Source of the DNA: a virus
Direction: 5' to 3' (one strand)
Virus record (IMG/VR): IMGVR_UViG_3300021057_000111
Location: 1 to 22,666 of that record
Length of the DNA stretch: 22,666 bases
In this document: positions 3,766 through 22,361 of the stretch, piece by piece
Numbering within the stretch: position 1 is the first letter of the stretch
Layout of the letters: every line of letters begins with the position of its first letter
Notes under the pieces: model-generated
What the model saw: only the letters and a program-made list of their open reading frames with translations
The model's database searches: none
What the model was told of the DNA's origin: nothing
Translations under genes and position numbers: made by a program

Positions 3766-5603
3766 GCTATGCCTTTCTGCGCTTGTAATTGTTGTTGCTG
3801 TTGCATTTCTACTTGTGCCTGTTGCTGAGCTTGCATTGCTATTCTTTGTAAAACGGCTTGATAGTTAGGATATTTAAGGTTTTTCATTACCTCTTCAGCG
3901 TCAATGATTCCTAATTGAAATAATTTGATAGATTGTTCTTCAATTCTATTTTTCTCAAACGGCAGCGCTGATCCGAGCGATATTTTCACATCAAACTTGC
4001 GGCGTATATCATAGACTTTTTCTTCACCTTCAACCTGCTGACCTTGTTCATTAACATGAACATCTTTGATCCTAGCTCTTTTAATGTTTGGATCTACTGG
4101 GTCTTGATCGATGTGAAATTTAAAGTATTTAATTGTGTTATCGTCATTGGTAATTCTAAAAACTTTAGGGACAGAGTAGTTTTCAAATACTAACGAGAGG
4201 TACAATTGACCAAAATCCTGCATGAAAGCGTCAATGTTTTTTGATTTTTGTCTAAGTCTTGTTTGTTGCGCTTGCTGGAGAGCTTCGATTGCTGAAGCTG
4301 CGGTAACGCCCTCTGGCTGCGCCCCCCTTGAAACGTCAGTTGAACCGGAAATATCATCAAACCACAGCTTCATTCTATCGATCATCTGAAGAACATATGG
4401 CTGAAGCTGAACCCCTTCTTCTCGTCTGACTTCTGAACTAGGATTTTTCTCTACAATGAGGCCAGGACGGTTAAACAAGTTGTCAGTATCAACTCCGGAC
4501 GTGTTATCAACTACCCAAATAGGATTTCCCATTAGAGTGAGAACATCTAAAGTGAATGAAAGAAGCTTATTAAATATTTTTTGTGGAGATTCCAACTGTT
4601 CAACTTCGCTCATTCCCCAGAATTCGTGAGCCATAATGTAGTTTTGAAGACGCAAGTAAGGGAATTTTCCACCCTCTTTTTCAGTAATAGGGCGGTCTTC
4701 AACTAAAACTCCAGAAACAACACACGAATAACGACCCAATGGATATTTTAGTTTCTTAAGATAAGAAATTTGTCCAGTTTCTTTGTCGGCAATTTCTTCT
4801 TCCTCAATCTCCATATCTTTGTAATAACATTTGATCTCAAGAGCTTCGTTCTTGTTTTCAATTGCCGTTGAGCCTTCCATTAACACACGATTATCAGACG
4901 GAGATTTATAGCTAACCATTTCGGTCATTCCTTTTTCTCGTCTCATGATGTCCACAATGTCGGCTTCTAAGTAATCTGCATATTCAGGATATTTTTGCTT
5001 TAAAACCTCTAATTCGACTGGTCTTGCTTCAACGTATGACCGTGATCTTTTATTTACATCCAAAGCGTAAGGGTCGGGATATTGATAAAACGTGTCAGGT
5101 GATTCAAAACAGATTCCACCAATGCCGTCGTTATAATCTGGGTCATAATGTAGTTCGCCAAATCCAGTTCCTAAAATATGAGAATCATACAAACATTCGG
5201 TGAAAATATATGACCAGTTATTTGAATCCCAATCACACTCTAAAACATCGTTAAGGATTTTACTTAGTTCGTAGTCAGATGGCTCTTTGGGTAAAAACTC
5301 AGGCTTTGGAAGCGCGTCTGTTAAAATAGGGATGACTGATTGAATAGCTCTAAAAATTAGATTTATAACTTCGGAGTGCCTGTAAGAAGGACGTTGTTCT
5401 TTCCACTGCTTGCCACGAAACATCCGGTAATAATCTTGCCATTTTTCATCATTGGCTTTTCTTCCAGCTTTATTCTTGGAGAAAATCTGATTAACTAATT
5501 TAATTGTGCTAGCTTGTTCTGGGGTAGGCTGATATTCGGAAGTGTGATTTTCGGCAGAACTTGGTGCTTCATGCTCGTTTAATAATCCGTAAACTTCAGC
5601 CAT
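3762..5603 (-). CDS. Portal protein (P22 gp1-like type)
   Basis: A 613-residue protein. The N-terminus is followed by NDEKWQDYYRMFRGKQWKEQRPSYRHSEVINLIFRAIQSV, the usual portal start in which a small DNA-entry domain is set up. Then come ILGTGFGELHYDPDY and IGGICFESPDTFYQYPDPYA, typical of portals whose products describe 'G.g..e....P..f..DP'. The long clip/stem segment includes VEQLESPQKIFNKLLSFTLD and a helix-rich region near GVTAASAIEALQQAQQTRLRQKSKNID. A Gln-rich tail (residues about 590-613) may form the barrel or be disordered. It follows terminase and an FmdB protein and precedes scaffold and capsid genes. It would form the dodecameric DNA channel and seat the terminase. Confidence 0.86.
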   Translation of the reverse strand: MAEVYGLLNEHEAPSSAENHTSEYQPTPEQASTIKLVNQIFSKNKAGRKANDEKWQDYYRMFRGKQWKEQRPSYRHSEVINLIFRAIQSVIPILTDALPKPEFLPKEPSDYELSKILNDVLECDWDSNNWSYIFTECLYDSHILGTGFGELHYDPDYNDGIGGICFESPDTFYQYPDPYALDVNKRSRSYVEARPVELEVLKQKYPEYADYLEADIVDIMRREKGMTEMVSYKSPSDNRVLMEGSTAIENKNEALEIKCYYKDMEIEEEEIADKETGQISYLKKLKYPLGRYSCVVSGVLVEDRPITEKEGGKFPYLRLQNYIMAHEFWGMSEVEQLESPQKIFNKLLSFTLDVLTLMGNPIWVVDNTSGVDTDNLFNRPGLIVEKNPSSEVRREEGVQLQPYVLQMIDRMKLWFDDISGSTDVSRGAQPEGVTAASAIEALQQAQQTRLRQKSKNIDAFMQDFGQLYLSLVFENYSVPKVFRITNDDNTIKYFKFHIDQDPVDPNIKRARIKDVHVNEQGQQVEGEEKVYDIRRKFDVKISLGSALPFEKNRIEEQSIKLFQLGIIDAEEVMKNLKYPNYQAVLQRIAMQAQQQAQVEMQQQQQLQAQKGIA

Positions 5604-7879: not shown

Positions 7880-8043
7880 ATTGCCTCCGATTTGCAGTTA
7901 AAGCAGAAATTCTCTTTAATTCTAGGTTTTGAACATTGGCAGCGGATTGCCACTCTGATTTTTCTAACAAGGCTATGTAAATCTTGTTGTGGTTCATTTA
8001 TTAACTCACGCACTTTCTTTAGTTTTTTACTCGCCTTGCTCAT
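7876..8043 (-). CDS. Small basic protein with zinc-knuckle tail
   Basis: A 55-residue protein when started at ATG 8043 (MSKASKKLKKVREL). A longer TTG reading start at 8058 is less likely. The first 35 residues are helical and basic; the last 20 hold CQCSKPRIKENFCFNCK, a four-Cys pattern (CxC...CxxC) that could bind zinc. It overlaps the end of the DUF5681 gene by 17 bp. A nucleic-acid-binding role is plausible but not shown. Confidence 0.55.
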   Translation of the reverse strand: MSKASKKLKKVRELINEPQQDLHSLVRKIRVAIRCQCSKPRIKENFCFNCKSEAI

Positions 8044-8467
8044 TATCTTCAGCGCCAAGGAGATAAGCGTCTCCGTCTGTCAATTTAACCAAGGTAGGAG
8101 TTGGTAACTGATGCTTAATCGTTTCTGTAACTTTCCCTATTGATCTATCTAATAAGAAATTGATCCTCGAAAAGTCTCCGTACTTTCTTGCAAACACAAC
8201 AAGGGTCGCTGCTAACACTTCCATTGCTGGCTTATCTGTAGCCTTTGAAATCTTGGTTAATTCAGAAATTGTCATGTTCAGTTGATCTAAAATAATTTTA
8301 GCAATGGCGTTTTTGTTAAGTTCTCTGGCTTTTTTAAGATCCGGTGGCACTTTAGGTCTTCCACCTGGATTCCCAGACTGTCCCGGTTTAAAGGGTTTAA
8401 GGTTCTTTATACTTTTTTCTGTCACTGCATAAGCCTCTGTTGTCAATGTTGGCGCTGTATCATTCAA
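8027..8467 (-). CDS. DUF5681-containing small-terminase candidate
   Basis: A 146-residue protein with KPFKPGQSGNPGGRPKVPP near residues 25-43. This is the diagnostic basic G-rich motif of DUF5681, a domain widespread in phage packaging modules next to terminases. The rest is helical (AREL, IIDQLN, IGKVTETIKHQL) with a flexible acidic tail. It sits at the head of the packaging block, so a DNA-recognising small-terminase role is likely by position. The start is unsettled: the first codon is TTG at 8467, directly after a hairpin. GTG at 8425 has a better AGAGG site and gives 132 residues. Confidence 0.7.
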   Translation of the reverse strand: MNDTAPTLTTEAYAVTEKSIKNLKPFKPGQSGNPGGRPKVPPDLKKARELNKNAIAKIILDQLNMTISELTKISKATDKPAMEVLAATLVVFARKYGDFSRINFLLDRSIGKVTETIKHQLPTPTLVKLTDGDAYLLGAEDNEQGE

Positions 8468-8487
8468 AAGGCTCGTCCATGAGCCTT
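8466..8487 (-). terminator. Hairpin directly before the DUF5681 start, terminator- or attenuator-like
   Basis: On the minus strand AAGGCTC-ATGGAC-GAGCCTT is a perfect 7-bp stem with a 6-nt loop, followed by TTTTG. It overlaps the TTG start region of the small-terminase candidate. It could be an intrinsic terminator with a short T-tract, an attenuator or a translational control hairpin. It lies 18 bp downstream of one copy of the 17-bp repeat. Confidence 0.5.
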
Positions 8488-8505
8488 ACTTTAGTCTTGT
8501 AAGGC

Positions 8506-8522
8506 ACTTGTTAATGGGTCAA
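8506..8522 (-). repeat. 17-bp direct repeat, copy 1
   Basis: The minus strand reads TTGACCCATTAACAAGT, identical over 17 bp to the copy at 10015-10031. Here the first 12 bases also encode the end of the upstream 71-residue protein (Leu-Thr-His-stop). A hairpin and a translation start follow within 40 bp. TTGACC resembles a -35 hexamer but I see no good -10 at 16-18 bp. Confidence 0.7.
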
Positions 8523-8726
8523 GTCTTTCCCGTAGTTAGATTTTCTTAAGAATTTTAGTACCTTATCTAGATCTATTTCTTTTTTGATTCCAGTTTCGGT
8601 TTTATACACGATTAACCTTCTATCCCAATCTGCATATAGTTGTTCGATTTTACCAATGTCCTCTTCAACGGAATCTAAGAAGGTCTGGTCAGTTAAAAGC
8701 ATGTCGATTAGATATTTGTCTGTCAT
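8511..8726 (-). CDS. Hypothetical 71-residue protein
   Basis: A short acidic, helix-rich protein (LTDQTFLDSVEEDIGKIEQL, then IDLDKVLKFLRKSN) with no recognised domain. Its ATG overlaps the stop of the gene above by ATGA. Its last codons run into the 17-bp repeat, so a regulatory element and the coding end share sequence. Function unknown. Confidence 0.58.
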   Translation of the reverse strand: MTDKYLIDMLLTDQTFLDSVEEDIGKIEQLYADWDRRLIVYKTETGIKKEIDLDKVLKFLRKSNYGKDLTH

Positions 8727-8995
8727 ATAAAAGACCCTTCCTTGTTGTTAATGGCGTTTTTAATCTTTTCGCCGCGAACTTTTCTCATGTAGTCGTTACA
8801 AGCGTCTTCAACTGTTGTTCCTGTACCGAATAAGAAGGTTTGATTTCCCGGAATGAATACCCCTTCAACATAAACGTATAAGCTAAAATCAGTGGTAAAA
8901 GCGAAAATAGCTTTTGAACCTAATTCATGAGCAATATTGGCTACATCTCTAATATAACAATCAAATCCTTTTGGTAAAATTACGTCATTGAACAT
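8723..8995 (-). CDS. Hypothetical 90-residue protein
   Basis: An alpha/beta protein (MFNDVILPKGFDCYIRDV, FAFTTDFSLYVYVEGVFIPG, GTTVEDACNDYMRKVRGEK). No signal peptide and no motif I recognise. It overlaps the upstream secreted-type gene by 11 bp and is coupled by ATGA to the one below. Cotranscription with lysis-region genes is certain from spacing, but its role is not. Confidence 0.58.
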   Translation of the reverse strand: MFNDVILPKGFDCYIRDVANIAHELGSKAIFAFTTDFSLYVYVEGVFIPGNQTFLFGTGTTVEDACNDYMRKVRGEKIKNAINNKEGSFI

Positions 8996-9191
8996 AATAA
9001 CGAGGCTCCTTCCATGTCTCCCCGTGCTTTGGAACTCTTAAAATTATCTTGGACATATCTCTTTGGTTTGCACAGTAACACGTCTTGTCTTTAACAAAAT
9101 AAGTCTCGTCACCGTCCATTTTACATACGGTCCGGCATTCGATTTCAAACACACTAATCAATATCAATGTTAGACATAACCATTCCGACAT
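8985..9191 (-). CDS. Small Cys-rich protein with N-terminal hydrophobic segment
   Basis: A 68-residue protein from ATG 9191 (MSEWLCLTLILISVFEIEC), preceded by GTGGGAATAT as ribosome binding site; the longer TTG start at 9203 is less likely. Residues 4-16 are hydrophobic and could be a membrane anchor or signal peptide, though a positive n-region is missing. After it come five Cys in total counting C19 (C19, C24 and the CYC pair among them) and a basic C-terminus. Its first 38 bp overlap, in another frame, a 29-codon membrane microprotein. Such nesting recalls Rz/Rz1-type spanins, but no lipobox is visible. Confidence 0.55.
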   Translation of the reverse strand: MSEWLCLTLILISVFEIECRTVCKMDGDETYFVKDKTCYCANQRDMSKIILRVPKHGETWKEPRYYVQ

Positions 9192-9243
9192 ATATTCCCA
9201 CAACTAATGTAATTACGAGTTTAAATGCAATTCCTTCGATCAT
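9154..9243 (-). CDS. 29-residue single-span membrane microprotein
   Basis: A frame too short for standard listings. ATG at 9243 overlaps the metallophosphoesterase stop as ATGA, which gives coupled translation. It encodes a short polar start (MIEG), a hydrophobic helix (residues 5-24, including FKLVITLVVGIYVGMVM) and a tail SNIDID. Its 3' end overlaps the next gene in a different frame. The ATGA coupling and clean membrane helix argue it is real. Function unknown; lysis or membrane anchoring is possible. Confidence 0.55.
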   Translation of the reverse strand: MIEGIAFKLVITLVVGIYVGMVMSNIDID

Positions 9244-9992
9244 TTAAATAACTTCCCATCTACTACGCATGTATAGTTGTCCATGATGTGAATTTTTTGG
9301 TGATAGAAATATTTTGTTTTAGGATCTACCCGTACAATGCCAAATCCTAATTGCCATTGATGATGATTTTTAACGTAATCAAAAACTTTATCGTACCGCT
9401 TATCTCCTAGCCACCCTACTGAAAAGCAGACGTGGTTAGTTCCATCTAGACCTACAATGTGACTTTCCTCAATTGTATGAATGTGGAAATACGCTAATGA
9501 ACACAGAGCCTTGGTGGCTGTGGCTTTAGCTGATGTTGATAGCGGTGTGTGCTTACACCTTAGGTATGAATTTAAAATTTTATATGATTGATTTGGAGAG
9601 TATCTAACAAACTTCCAATTAGGGCGGCGGTTAATATCTAAGAGGTGCTCTGTGGATGTCAGTCCAAATAACGCCGGAGCATTGTCTGTTAAATGTCTCT
9701 CAAGTCGGTTTTCATGGTTGCCTTCAATATATATCTTCTTGGCTCTTGGAAAGAGTTTATCTAATTGATCAAGGCCTTTTCTAACATCTTCTACTTCATC
9801 AACAAGCAATTGAAAAATTCTTGGATCCTTAGCATGTGAAGAGATGTTGTAAAAATCTGCGTAATCACCGCCAATCACTATTTCATGCGGGTTAATGAAC
9901 TGTGCGACCTTAATCATAAGGTTATAAGCCCTGCGATCATGATAGGGCCGATGTGTATCCGGTATTAGTAAAGCCGTCTTTAGTTTACTCAC
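9240..9992 (-). CDS. Calcineurin-like metallophosphoesterase
   Basis: A 250-residue protein with the ordered motifs of the family: PDTH (D12, H14), GGDYAD (41-46) and GNHE (91-94), followed by later histidines (FHIHTIEESHIVGLDGTNHVCF) and the pattern G-W-L-G. The enzyme would use a dinuclear metal centre to cleave a phosphodiester or phosphomonoester, but the substrate in this phage is not deducible. The start is GTG 9992 and a stop codon lies in frame upstream. The AAGG and GTG sit inside a hairpin, so translation may be regulated. Similar phosphoesterases are common phage accessories. Confidence 0.82.
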   Translation of the reverse strand: MSKLKTALLIPDTHRPYHDRRAYNLMIKVAQFINPHEIVIGGDYADFYNISSHAKDPRIFQLLVDEVEDVRKGLDQLDKLFPRAKKIYIEGNHENRLERHLTDNAPALFGLTSTEHLLDINRRPNWKFVRYSPNQSYKILNSYLRCKHTPLSTSAKATATKALCSLAYFHIHTIEESHIVGLDGTNHVCFSVGWLGDKRYDKVFDYVKNHHQWQLGFGIVRVDPKTKYFYHQKIHIMDNYTCVVDGKLFK

Positions 9993-10012
9993 CTTACGTC
10001 TAGTAAGTGAGT
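9987..10012 (-). promoter_or_regulatory. Hairpin enclosing the metallophosphoesterase start codon
   Basis: On the minus strand ACTCACTTAC-TAGAC-GTAAGGTGAGT pairs 10 bp with one bulged G. The right arm contains the AAGG purines and the GTG start (9992-9990). When folded, the start would be masked; alternatively the palindrome is a DNA operator. It lies directly downstream of the 17-bp repeat copy 2. Confidence 0.5.
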
Positions 10013-10014
10013 AT

Positions 10015-10031
10015 ACTTGTTAATGGGTCAA
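10015..10031 (-). repeat. 17-bp direct repeat, copy 2
   Basis: TTGACCCATTAACAAGT on the minus strand, identical to 8506-8522. It begins right after the stop codon of the 72-residue zinc-ribbon gene and 23 bp before the metallophosphoesterase GTG. As at the first copy, a hairpin separates it from, or overlaps, the downstream start. This suggests a shared regulatory module. Confidence 0.7.
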
Positions 10032-10250
10032 TTACAGGTCTAGGTCGTTTTTCTTTGATGTTTTCCAGCCGTATTCAGCATCTGGCCTGTTTGCTCTTAG
10101 AGCACCTCTTTTGTTTTTATCTTCTGTGTACTTAAAAAAGAGTGCGTGTCTGCAATCCGGACAATAATCAACCATTTTGTTATGAAATTTCACAAGCCCT
10201 CTGGATCCTGCACCTTTGCAGCTAAAACAAATCATTTTGAATTCTCTCAT
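10032..10250 (-). CDS. Small zinc-ribbon protein
   Basis: A 72-residue protein with CFSCKGAGSRG and CPDC motifs (C8, C11, C30, C33), a treble-clef or zinc-ribbon pattern similar to one half of a DnaJ zinc domain. The tail is basic and polar. ATG 10250 has a clear AGAGGGG site 5 bp upstream. It lies between the endolysin candidate and the metallophosphoesterase. Likely nucleic-acid or protein binding, exact role unknown. Confidence 0.68.
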   Translation of the reverse strand: MREFKMICFSCKGAGSRGLVKFHNKMVDYCPDCRHALFFKYTEDKNKRGALRANRPDAEYGWKTSKKNDLDL

Positions 10251-13888: not shown

Positions 13889-14074
13889 CTACTCCCCCGA
13901 TGCTTTAAAGGTTGTTGTTTCTTTGTATCTGTCAGGCTCTGAAAGCATGTCTTTCAATGTGAAGGCTGTTGCTTCAAGCTTCCCGTTATAGATTCGGTAA
14001 AAACTTTCACCAATTAGACAAAACTCCATCCAGCTAAGTATTCTGTCTTGCCAGTGTCGATCACACTTCTTCAT
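13889..14074 (-). CDS. Hypothetical 61-residue protein
   Basis: Started at ATG 14074; a GTG at 14092 would overlap the upstream gene further. It overlaps that gene by 14 bp. Sequence MKKCDRHWQDRILSWMEFCL and then IGESFYRIYNGKLEATAFTL suggests a small alpha/beta fold. No motif recognised. Confidence 0.55.
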   Translation of the reverse strand: MKKCDRHWQDRILSWMEFCLIGESFYRIYNGKLEATAFTLKDMLSEPDRYKETTTFKASGE

Positions 14075-14180
14075 AAACACCAACGCCTTCACAACAAGGA
14101 CACACCATTGGCTTGCCTGTTAGCAAATTTACAGTTGTTCCTTCGCCGTCGCATTCGATACAAATTATTTCTTCTGTCAT
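14061..14180 (-). CDS. 39-residue double DnaJ-type zinc motif protein
   Basis: A short frame at ATG 14180 with AGAGGTTGAA as ribosome binding site, ending in TGA 14063-14061. It holds two CxxCxGxG motifs, CIECDGEG (C7, C10) and CPCCEGVG (C27, C30), separated by 16 residues, with almost nothing else. CxxCxGxG is the signature of the DnaJ/Hsp40 central zinc domain. Two motifs form one zinc site, so this is a minimal single-zinc unit. It could imitate a J-protein zinc domain or simply be a structural zinc microprotein. Confidence 0.68.
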   Translation of the reverse strand: MTEEIICIECDGEGTTVNLLTGKPMVCPCCEGVGVYEEV

Positions 14181-14215
14181 TTCAACCTCTCTTGTTAATT
14201 GCCGGAGCGTTGGGG

Positions 14216-16348: not shown

Positions 16349-17071
<723 letters not shown>

Positions 17072-17073
17072 TT

Positions 17074-17328
17074 TTACTCCTTGATTTGCCAAACTATGGC
17101 GCTTTTATTTGTTTCTGGATTAACTCGACGCTTTTCTGAGGCTTCAACTAAACCCATCTTTACTAATTCATTTACTCGCCCTGTAATGCGATTAACGGCC
17201 CATCCTGTGATCTTTGAGATCTCAAACAAGCAAAGACCTTTGTAAGCAGAAATTAACGCTAATACGTGCGCTTGCTTCTCTCCGATGTTTTCTAATTCGC
17301 TGTAAGCGTCTAGTGATGTTTGTCTCAT
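17074..17328 (-). CDS. Winged-helix DNA-binding protein
   Basis: An 84-residue protein with a winged-helix layout: QAHVLALISAYKGLCLFEIS (helices 1-2), KITGWAVNRITGRVNELVKM (recognition helix about 40-57) and a wing GLVEASEKRRVNPETNKSA. Similar to MarR-like or phage replication-associated small wHTH proteins. ATGA-coupled to the replication gene above. It could be a replication helper or a local regulator. Confidence 0.72.
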   Translation of the reverse strand: MRQTSLDAYSELENIGEKQAHVLALISAYKGLCLFEISKITGWAVNRITGRVNELVKMGLVEASEKRRVNPETNKSAIVWQIKE

Positions 17329-18730: not shown

Positions 18731-18754
18731 CTCCATCTCTTGAGAGAGATGGAG
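18731..18754. repeat. Inverted repeat at the CCA end of the tRNA copy
   Basis: CTCCATCTCT-TGAG-AGAGATGGAG: perfect 10-bp arms with a 4-base loop. One arm contains the tRNA CCA end. There is no T-tract on either strand, so an integration-related role is likelier than termination. Confidence 0.6.
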
Positions 18755-18799
18755 CGGGAAACGGGACTCAAACCCGCGACCTATGCCTTGGCAAGGCAT
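18750..18799 (-). other. attP core: 3' half of tRNA-Gly(GCC)
   Basis: On the minus strand 50 bp match the 3' half of a tRNA-Gly: anticodon arm ATGCC-TTGCCAA-GGCAT with anticodon GCC, variable region, T-arm GCGGG-TTTGAGT-CCCGT, acceptor TTCCCGC, discriminator T and CCA. The 5' acceptor half is missing and the T-loop lacks the usual C56, so this is not a working tRNA. Integrases of the tyrosine type commonly use tRNA 3' halves, and int follows 110 bp away. Likely restores the host gene on integration. Confidence 0.78.
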
Positions 18800-18908
18800 C
18801 ACTCATTCCGCTGTGGACTGAATGATTTGGTTACTAATCATTGACCTTAGTCTAACGACTAAAGTTTAGGTAAATCAACATTTATTTTTAAGATTTCTAA
18901 AGATTTCT

Positions 18909-19823: not shown

Positions 19824-19884
19824 TTAGCCCTCTGATTAAAAACAGGTCTAGCCCCAAAGAAGAATCCCCTTTGTTATGACCTCT

Positions 19885-19914: not shown

Positions 19915-19928
19915 AATAAATTAACAAA
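19907..19928. promoter_or_regulatory. 8-6-8 palindrome over the integrase -35
   Basis: TTTGTTAA-AATAAA-TTAACAAA: perfect 8-bp arms covering the -35 hexamer, so a bound dimeric regulator would block the promoter. A second inverted repeat TTAAGG/CCTTAA lies next to it (19934-19952). Confidence 0.6.
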
Positions 19929-21894: not shown

Positions 21895-22114
21895 GATTCG
21901 CTCCTGTCTCTTTAAGGATTTTGGCGTGCTCATATCTGTAATCATCCAAAAGATCGGTGAGGGCTATACATTCCTGAATGTAGGCGGCTACTGGCCTGAA
22001 GCTATTATATTTTAAATCGACCTCTACCATTCTCTTAAGTTCTGCCCGTCTATTTTCTGTGGTAGAAATCAGTTGATAAAGCTCAAGCAAGCGTTGTCGC
22101 TTATCAGTTGTCAT
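21881..22114 (-). CDS. Hypothetical 77-residue helical protein
   Basis: MTTDKRQRLLELYQLISTTE, RRAELKRMVEVDLKYNSFRP, TDLLDDYRYEHAKILKETGA. Helical with no motif, related in plan to the gene below. Its ATG 22114 overlaps the end of the HTH gene by 11 bp. Confidence 0.57.
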   Translation of the reverse strand: MTTDKRQRLLELYQLISTTENRRAELKRMVEVDLKYNSFRPVAAYIQECIALTDLLDDYRYEHAKILKETGANHDQL

Positions 22115-22361
22115 ACTTCCCTGCCTTTATTTCTTTTAATAAAGCTTTTGTTTCATTAGCTATTAACTCAGAAACTATTTTCTTTTCTGGTAAATTAAGA
22201 ATTACAATAAGCTTCCCGAGAGTTTTTAAAGGGCATTTAGAGCGCCCAACTTCAATCATGTGAACAAACTGCATAGACTCGTAACCAAGCTTTTGACTTA
22301 ATTCGAGCTGAGTCATTCCGGCTTTTGATCTGTATTCGCGGATAGTTTGGCCGAGGGTCAT
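22104..22361 (-). CDS. XRE/Cro-type HTH regulator
   Basis: An 85-residue protein with a Cro/C1-type helix-turn-helix at residues 16-40 (MTQLELSQKLGYESMQFVHM, then IEVGRSKCPLKTLGKLIVIL). The C-terminus is a short helix. No peptidase domain, so it is not a LexA-type repressor. As part of the leftward early operon it may act as Cro-like or accessory regulator; its operator could be one of the palindromes left of it, but no link is shown. ATGA coupling to the gene above. Confidence 0.78.
   Translation of the reverse strand: MTLGQTIREYRSKAGMTQLELSQKLGYESMQFVHMIEVGRSKCPLKTLGKLIVILNLPEKKIVSELIANETKALLKEIKAGKYDN

Follow-up and report, generated by a model that had tools for sequence, protein, structure and literature searches.

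A duplicated 17-bp repeat and stem-loop in the leaders of a phosphoesterase gene and a probable small terminase gene of a phage genome fragment

Repeated leader elements in phages and the present locus

PeSLs, reportedly described by Arbiol et al. in 2010 and by Comeau et al. in 2014, are cassettes of a promoter and a stem-loop by which small genes are shuffled in T4-type phages. Phage-specific promoters, for example those of T7-type RNA polymerases, also occur as repeats, which are about 17 to 23 bp long, exact, on the same strand and located in gene leaders. In the T4-type phages the abbreviation PeSL denotes a promoter early stem-loop (PMC4503421). In prophages, accessory genes with a promoter and terminator of their own are referred to as morons (PMC6469090, PMC7067206).

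The window considered here is a virus record of 22,666 bases, a fragment in which open reading frames (ORFs) run off both ends. The genes of interest are all encoded on the minus strand and comprise the terminase large subunit (terL), portal, integrase, HNH endonuclease, capsid, a DUF5681 protein and a metallophosphoesterase (PDE). The capsid protein matches annotated phage capsids, and because an integrase is present the phage is considered temperate. A PDE profile search in 84,980 genomes revealed no close prophage for host assignment. The genes and repeat copies needed below are:

9240..9992, minus strand: metallophosphoesterase gene (PDE), GTG start without Shine-Dalgarno (SD) sequence, anti-SD energy -0.6; matches phrog_221 (E 2.5e-34) and Pfam Metallophos
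8027..8467, minus strand: probable small terminase gene (terS; DUF5681, Pfam PF18932, E 2.5e-10), annotated TTG start at 8467
10015..10031, minus strand: copy B of the 17-bp repeat, exact TTGACCCATTAACAAGT, directly after the TAA of ORF 10032-10250 and upstream of PDE
8506..8522, minus strand: copy A of the 17-bp repeat, exact TTGACCCATTAACAAGT, containing the TAA stop of ORF 8511-8726
8523..10014, minus strand: four-gene block between the copies, consisting of PDE and ORFs 8985-9203, 8723-8995 and 8511-8726

In related phages the terS relatives are located upstream of terL. The three small ORFs of the block have no match among the relatives tested. An HTH protein of the phage is encoded by ORF 22104-22361.

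Two further regions of the window deserve mention. ORF 16349-17092 (minus strand) carries a long alanine-rich tract built from AGC-type repeats, and Rfam matches to isrG and to a miRNA within it were discarded as repeat artefacts. Downstream of the integrase gene lies a tRNA-like stretch (18753-18811, minus strand; 30.2 bits for Rfam tRNA, none reported by ARAGORN), which on reading the sequence is likely the 3' part of a tRNA-Gly(GCC) and an attachment site.

The locus shares with PeSLs a short repeated intergenic module in which promoter-like sequence and a stem-loop stand beside small exchangeable genes. It differs in that no host early promoter is recognisable, the stem-loop is no clear terminator and the phage is a temperate one with an integrase rather than T4-like. 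PeSLs occur in many copies that bound shuffled small genes; here two copies bound a single four-gene block in a fragment genome. The exact same-strand repeats in gene leaders are equally reminiscent of T7-type promoters, but there are just two of them, and no typical start region comes after either. Moreover, no phage RNA polymerase gene was recognised among the genes examined in this incomplete fragment, and instead of a repeat at many transcription-unit starts, as expected for promoters of such a polymerase, only two sites were found in the 22.7 kb at up to 3 mismatches. Finally, PDE resembles the morons in its varied gene contexts, upstream motif of its own, SD-less start and nearby hairpins in several phages, a likeness based on sequence; it differs from them in that tightly packed genes come after it in many relatives.

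The duplicated unit

The exact repeat at 8506 and 10015 given in the earlier note is borne out: TTGACCCATTAACAAGT is found without mismatch at both positions, the minus strand being the coding strand. Both copies occupy short same-strand gaps between the stop codon of the upstream gene and the next gene. No further site with up to 3 mismatches is present in the window (0.10 expected; two sites in 0 of 100 shuffles), and the 17-mer is the longest repeat of the window outside low-complexity sequence (the alanine-codon tract). Repeat length alone is nonetheless modest evidence, as 5% of window shuffles also yield a direct repeat of this length or more. The similarity does extend past the 17-mer: CTTAC(A/T)AGAC..GTAAGG is found in both copies, and the downstream sequences (GCCTTACAAGACTAAAGTAAGGC at A, CTCACTTACTAGACGTAAGGTGAG at B) align locally with a p of about 0.01. 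Because the similarity continues into a stem-loop, the duplicated unit measures about 40-45 nt and consists of the 17-mer plus the stem-loop. Its placement and the shared stem-loop make an origin by chance unlikely.

The stem-loops and a competing fold are located as follows:

9988..10011, minus strand: hairpin B, CTCACTTAC-TAGAC-GTAAGGTGAG, with the GTG start (9992-9990) in the 3' arm
8483..8505, minus strand: hairpin A, GCCTTAC-AAGACTAAA-GTAAGGC, pair probability 0.998
8468..8487, minus strand: AAGGCTC-ATGGAC-GAGCCTT, an alternative fold that competes with hairpin A; within the full leader its probability is 0.0007

Hairpin B folds at -13.6 kcal/mol (z -2.93), a stability equalled or exceeded by 2 of 200 shuffles. 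The inner stem (CTTAC/GTAAG) is identical in both hairpins, and each loop contains AGAC; further out, the stem positions differ between the two yet pair in each, a comparison of two sequences only. Taken in full, the 112-nt terS leader shows no unusual stability (z -1.4), and the Rfam 15 covariance models give no hit around 8450-8525 or 9985-10035, even with E up to 5. No T run follows hairpin B, while GGCTC..GAGCCTTTT at copy A represents a minor alternative fold; the hairpin at 8468..8487 is terminator-like on the plus strand. A terminator reading of the hairpins, which by eye fits the L129 and L133 leaders of relatives, was dropped as it does not fit copy B. Within the terS leader (8411-8505, minus strand) four segments can pair as 1:2 and 3:4 or else as 2:3. 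The 3:4 pairing covers the AGAGG before GTG 8425, an attenuator-like arrangement that is no more stable than shuffles.

The composite pattern (the TTAACAAG half plus the stem) matches nothing but these two places across the 2.96 Mb of fetched loci. A scan of IMG/VR, of a type that may omit the record of the window itself, gave no match. Exact 17-mers in IMG/VR (L003-L006) were treated as chance matches. None of these encodes relatives of the window genes tested; three of the 17-mers lie inside open frames of at least 50 codons, that of L004 is near a contig end, and the shared stem accompanies none of them. The earlier note also attached meaning to the core ATTAACAA at 14191 and 19919. This does not hold, as the core stays at chance level (5 sites against 2.2 expected; at least 5 in 7 of 100 shuffles); the site at 19920 is on the opposite strand and the one at 8745 inside coding sequence. 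A regulon based on this core was rejected accordingly. One chance ATTAACAA site is followed by an unlisted ORF of 39 codons (~14180-14062, minus strand), which encodes two CxxC pairs and has a good Shine-Dalgarno sequence.

Relatives of PDE with 54-67% identity are found in other viral contigs, and relatives of the packaging and capsid genes in many more. The scan of relatives proposed in the earlier note yielded no further copy: the 17-mer is absent at up to 2 mismatches and the module is kept in no relative found. Three contigs, whose capsid is 92% identical, stop short of the terS region.

Start regions and phosphoesterase leaders

The earlier note places a stable hairpin between the repeat and a non-ATG start, or over that start, at both genes. 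Hairpin B indeed encloses GTG 9992, but at terS a start-codon hairpin could not be confirmed. TTG 8467 is itself an uncertain start, because the alternative GTG 8425 is preceded by a Shine-Dalgarno-like AGAGG 8 nt upstream. The anti-SD energy is -5.8 near GTG 8425 (3 nt off that position, placed by reading the sequence) against -3.0 for TTG 8467. From the sequence, terS may start at GTG 8425 rather than at TTG 8467. Equally stable start regions are present at several other genes of the window, for example at 3-974 (1st percentile), at 13889-14092 and at the integrase gene. Translational gating, as suggested before, is possible at the PDE start, where the 3' arm of hairpin B contains the GTG and no Shine-Dalgarno sequence precedes it, but doubtful at terS. 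Gating limited to PDE is thus a plausible model. On reading the leaders we had the impression that hairpins occlude the start throughout the PDE relatives; this was rejected, since occlusion by structure is not conserved there compared with other ORFs (p = 0.33), and consequently hairpin gating is not a general PDE feature.

Regarding transcription, TTGACC in the 17-mer resembles a -35 box. Neither site is listed in a sigma-70 consensus scan, however, with no 9-of-12 promoter match at either, and the best -10 fit at PDE is a weak CTTACT after 18 nt. What remains of the proposed shared switch is a shared, non-random module at the start of two gene groups, whereas a good -10 box is missing. As no convincing -10 follows TTGACC, a site for an operator or activator or a stem-loop acting at the RNA level is equally possible. 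A general leaderless promoter upstream of PDE was tried and set aside: the L125, L130 and L192 leaders fit, but the sigma-70 scores have no clear peak.

The PDE start lacks a Shine-Dalgarno sequence across the clade: the median anti-SD energy is -0.9 kcal/mol against -6.2 kcal/mol for other ORFs at the same loci (Mann-Whitney p = 1e-6), a contrast exaggerated by the preference for good SD sequences in picking the starts of these other ORFs. It is also plain in the window itself, where starts were taken from the ORF list and most genes other than PDE do have an SD. A second shared property is a motif in the PDE leader:

10036..10043, minus strand: CTAGACCT motif, 4 nt before copy B and upstream of PDE

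Five phages (the window, L125, L126, L128 and L189) carry this motif 58-70 nt before the PDE core, and a sixth (L127) has CTAGACTT at the corresponding place in its PDE leader. When any 8-mer at any shared position was allowed, 0 of 300 permutations reached at least 5 loci (maximum 3 against 5 observed), though independence of the loci is incomplete, L125 being related to L126. If 1 mismatch and either orientation are allowed, sites are 13 times as dense at -90 to -45 as in the rest of the loci (10 sites against 0.77 expected), for a motif chosen after seeing the data. CTAGACCT is absent at copy A. Its interpretation as a protein-coding residue (LDL*) was rejected, as in several relatives the upstream reading frame does not include it. 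Searches for a shared motif after PDE and for common long intergenic words across the phages revealed nothing decisive.

The conserved position of CTAGACCT indicates that PDE has dedicated upstream signals, and the gene probably carries its own expression signals. Its gene neighbourhood is different in every relative tested. The SD-less, CTAGACCT-bearing PDE leader is a more general observation than the duplicated element, a genuine but minor feature of an ordinary kind.

Two other similarities were noted. A 10-mer of the PDE leader, CTAGACCTGT, recurs 28 nt before the integrase ATG (19842-19851, minus strand). In addition, AAAATCTTAAAAAGTCTGAAATCATT (L128, upstream of PDE, ~4960-5000) and AAAATCCTTAAAAAGTCTGAAATTATT (L199, downstream of PDE, ~5850) look very similar by eye, and such stretches in leaders of different phages are possibly a shared promoter.

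Possible roles of the duplicated unit

The reading we favour, though tentatively, is that both sites are copies of one phage regulatory cassette of 40-45 nt, an expression signal controlling two gene groups together. Such a cassette would consist of the TTGACC-containing 17-mer followed by the stem-loop, lying after the stop codon of one gene and ahead of the gene that opens either the PDE block or the terS-terL-portal-capsid group. Most likely it would be bound by a protein or polymerase, as a promoter or operator, allowing both groups to start or be controlled together. At PDE, the hairpin over the SD-less GTG could in addition lower translation of read-through message. Arguments for this cassette are the exact 17-mer in two same-strand leaders, the continuing CTTACnAGAC..GTAAGG similarity with outer pairs that differ but still pair, the restriction of the composite to two places in the fetched loci, the missing SD of PDE in window and clade, and the dedicated upstream signals marked by CTAGACCT. 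Against it count the lack of a good -10 box, the absence of the module from all relatives found, the missing CTAGACCT at copy A, and the presence of two copies only in 22.7 kb, other gene-group leaders being without the module. A different reading is an evolutionary residue, in which a stretch of the PDE leader was copied before terS by illegitimate recombination and is functionless now, or in which the 17-mer is partly due to chance. The 5% of shuffled windows with such a repeat and the absence of the module from relatives agree with a residue; the location of both copies in leaders on one strand and the stem-loop similarity beyond the 17-mer do not, and a fully neutral copy is not expected to keep a 17-mer exact for long. 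We consider a residue improbable.

It might also be argued that the repeats serve recombination, with regulation being secondary. They are direct and bound exactly four genes, the surroundings of PDE vary among relatives and the flanking small ORFs are unmatched there, so that by analogy an exchangeable block with a mobile PDE fits a PeSL-like recombination cassette. Nevertheless, a single such block is seen, and no relative was found in which it is missing or swapped at the repeats (the contigs with the 92% identical capsid end too early), leaving this an unlikely explanation. A translational operator at the RNA level, where an RNA-binding protein of phage or host origin would bind the AGAC-loop stem-loop and repress both PDE and terS, would account for the kept inner stem and loop, the compatible differences in the outer pairs and the location of the GTG of copy B inside the stem. 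The predicted fold of the terS leader also pairs the AGAGG before GTG 8425 (probability 0.99). Yet the comparison concerns two sequences, leader A is no more stable than shuffles, PDE relatives do not conserve the start occlusion and no Rfam family matches at the sites, which makes such an operator quite unlikely. A broader scenario starts from PDE itself: a widespread phage gene would travel with an unusual start region (SD-less, CTAGACCT ~60 nt upstream of the core, often a hairpin) and be expressed differently from the surrounding genes, for instance leaderless or gated by a regulator. Here its leader would also have donated the 17-mer and stem-loop to the packaging operon, thereby coupling both; this scenario, too, we rate as a minor candidate.

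If the regulatory cassette that we favour is a promoter or operator, it would form a control point linking an accessory nuclease- or phosphatase-like gene with DNA packaging in an uncultured group of temperate phages. The broader side result concerns the many phages in which PDE starts without a Shine-Dalgarno sequence among neighbours that have one, and with a common upstream motif. From the SD-less starts and the shared motif it follows as a prediction that transcription or translation of PDE would not depend on the operon around it.
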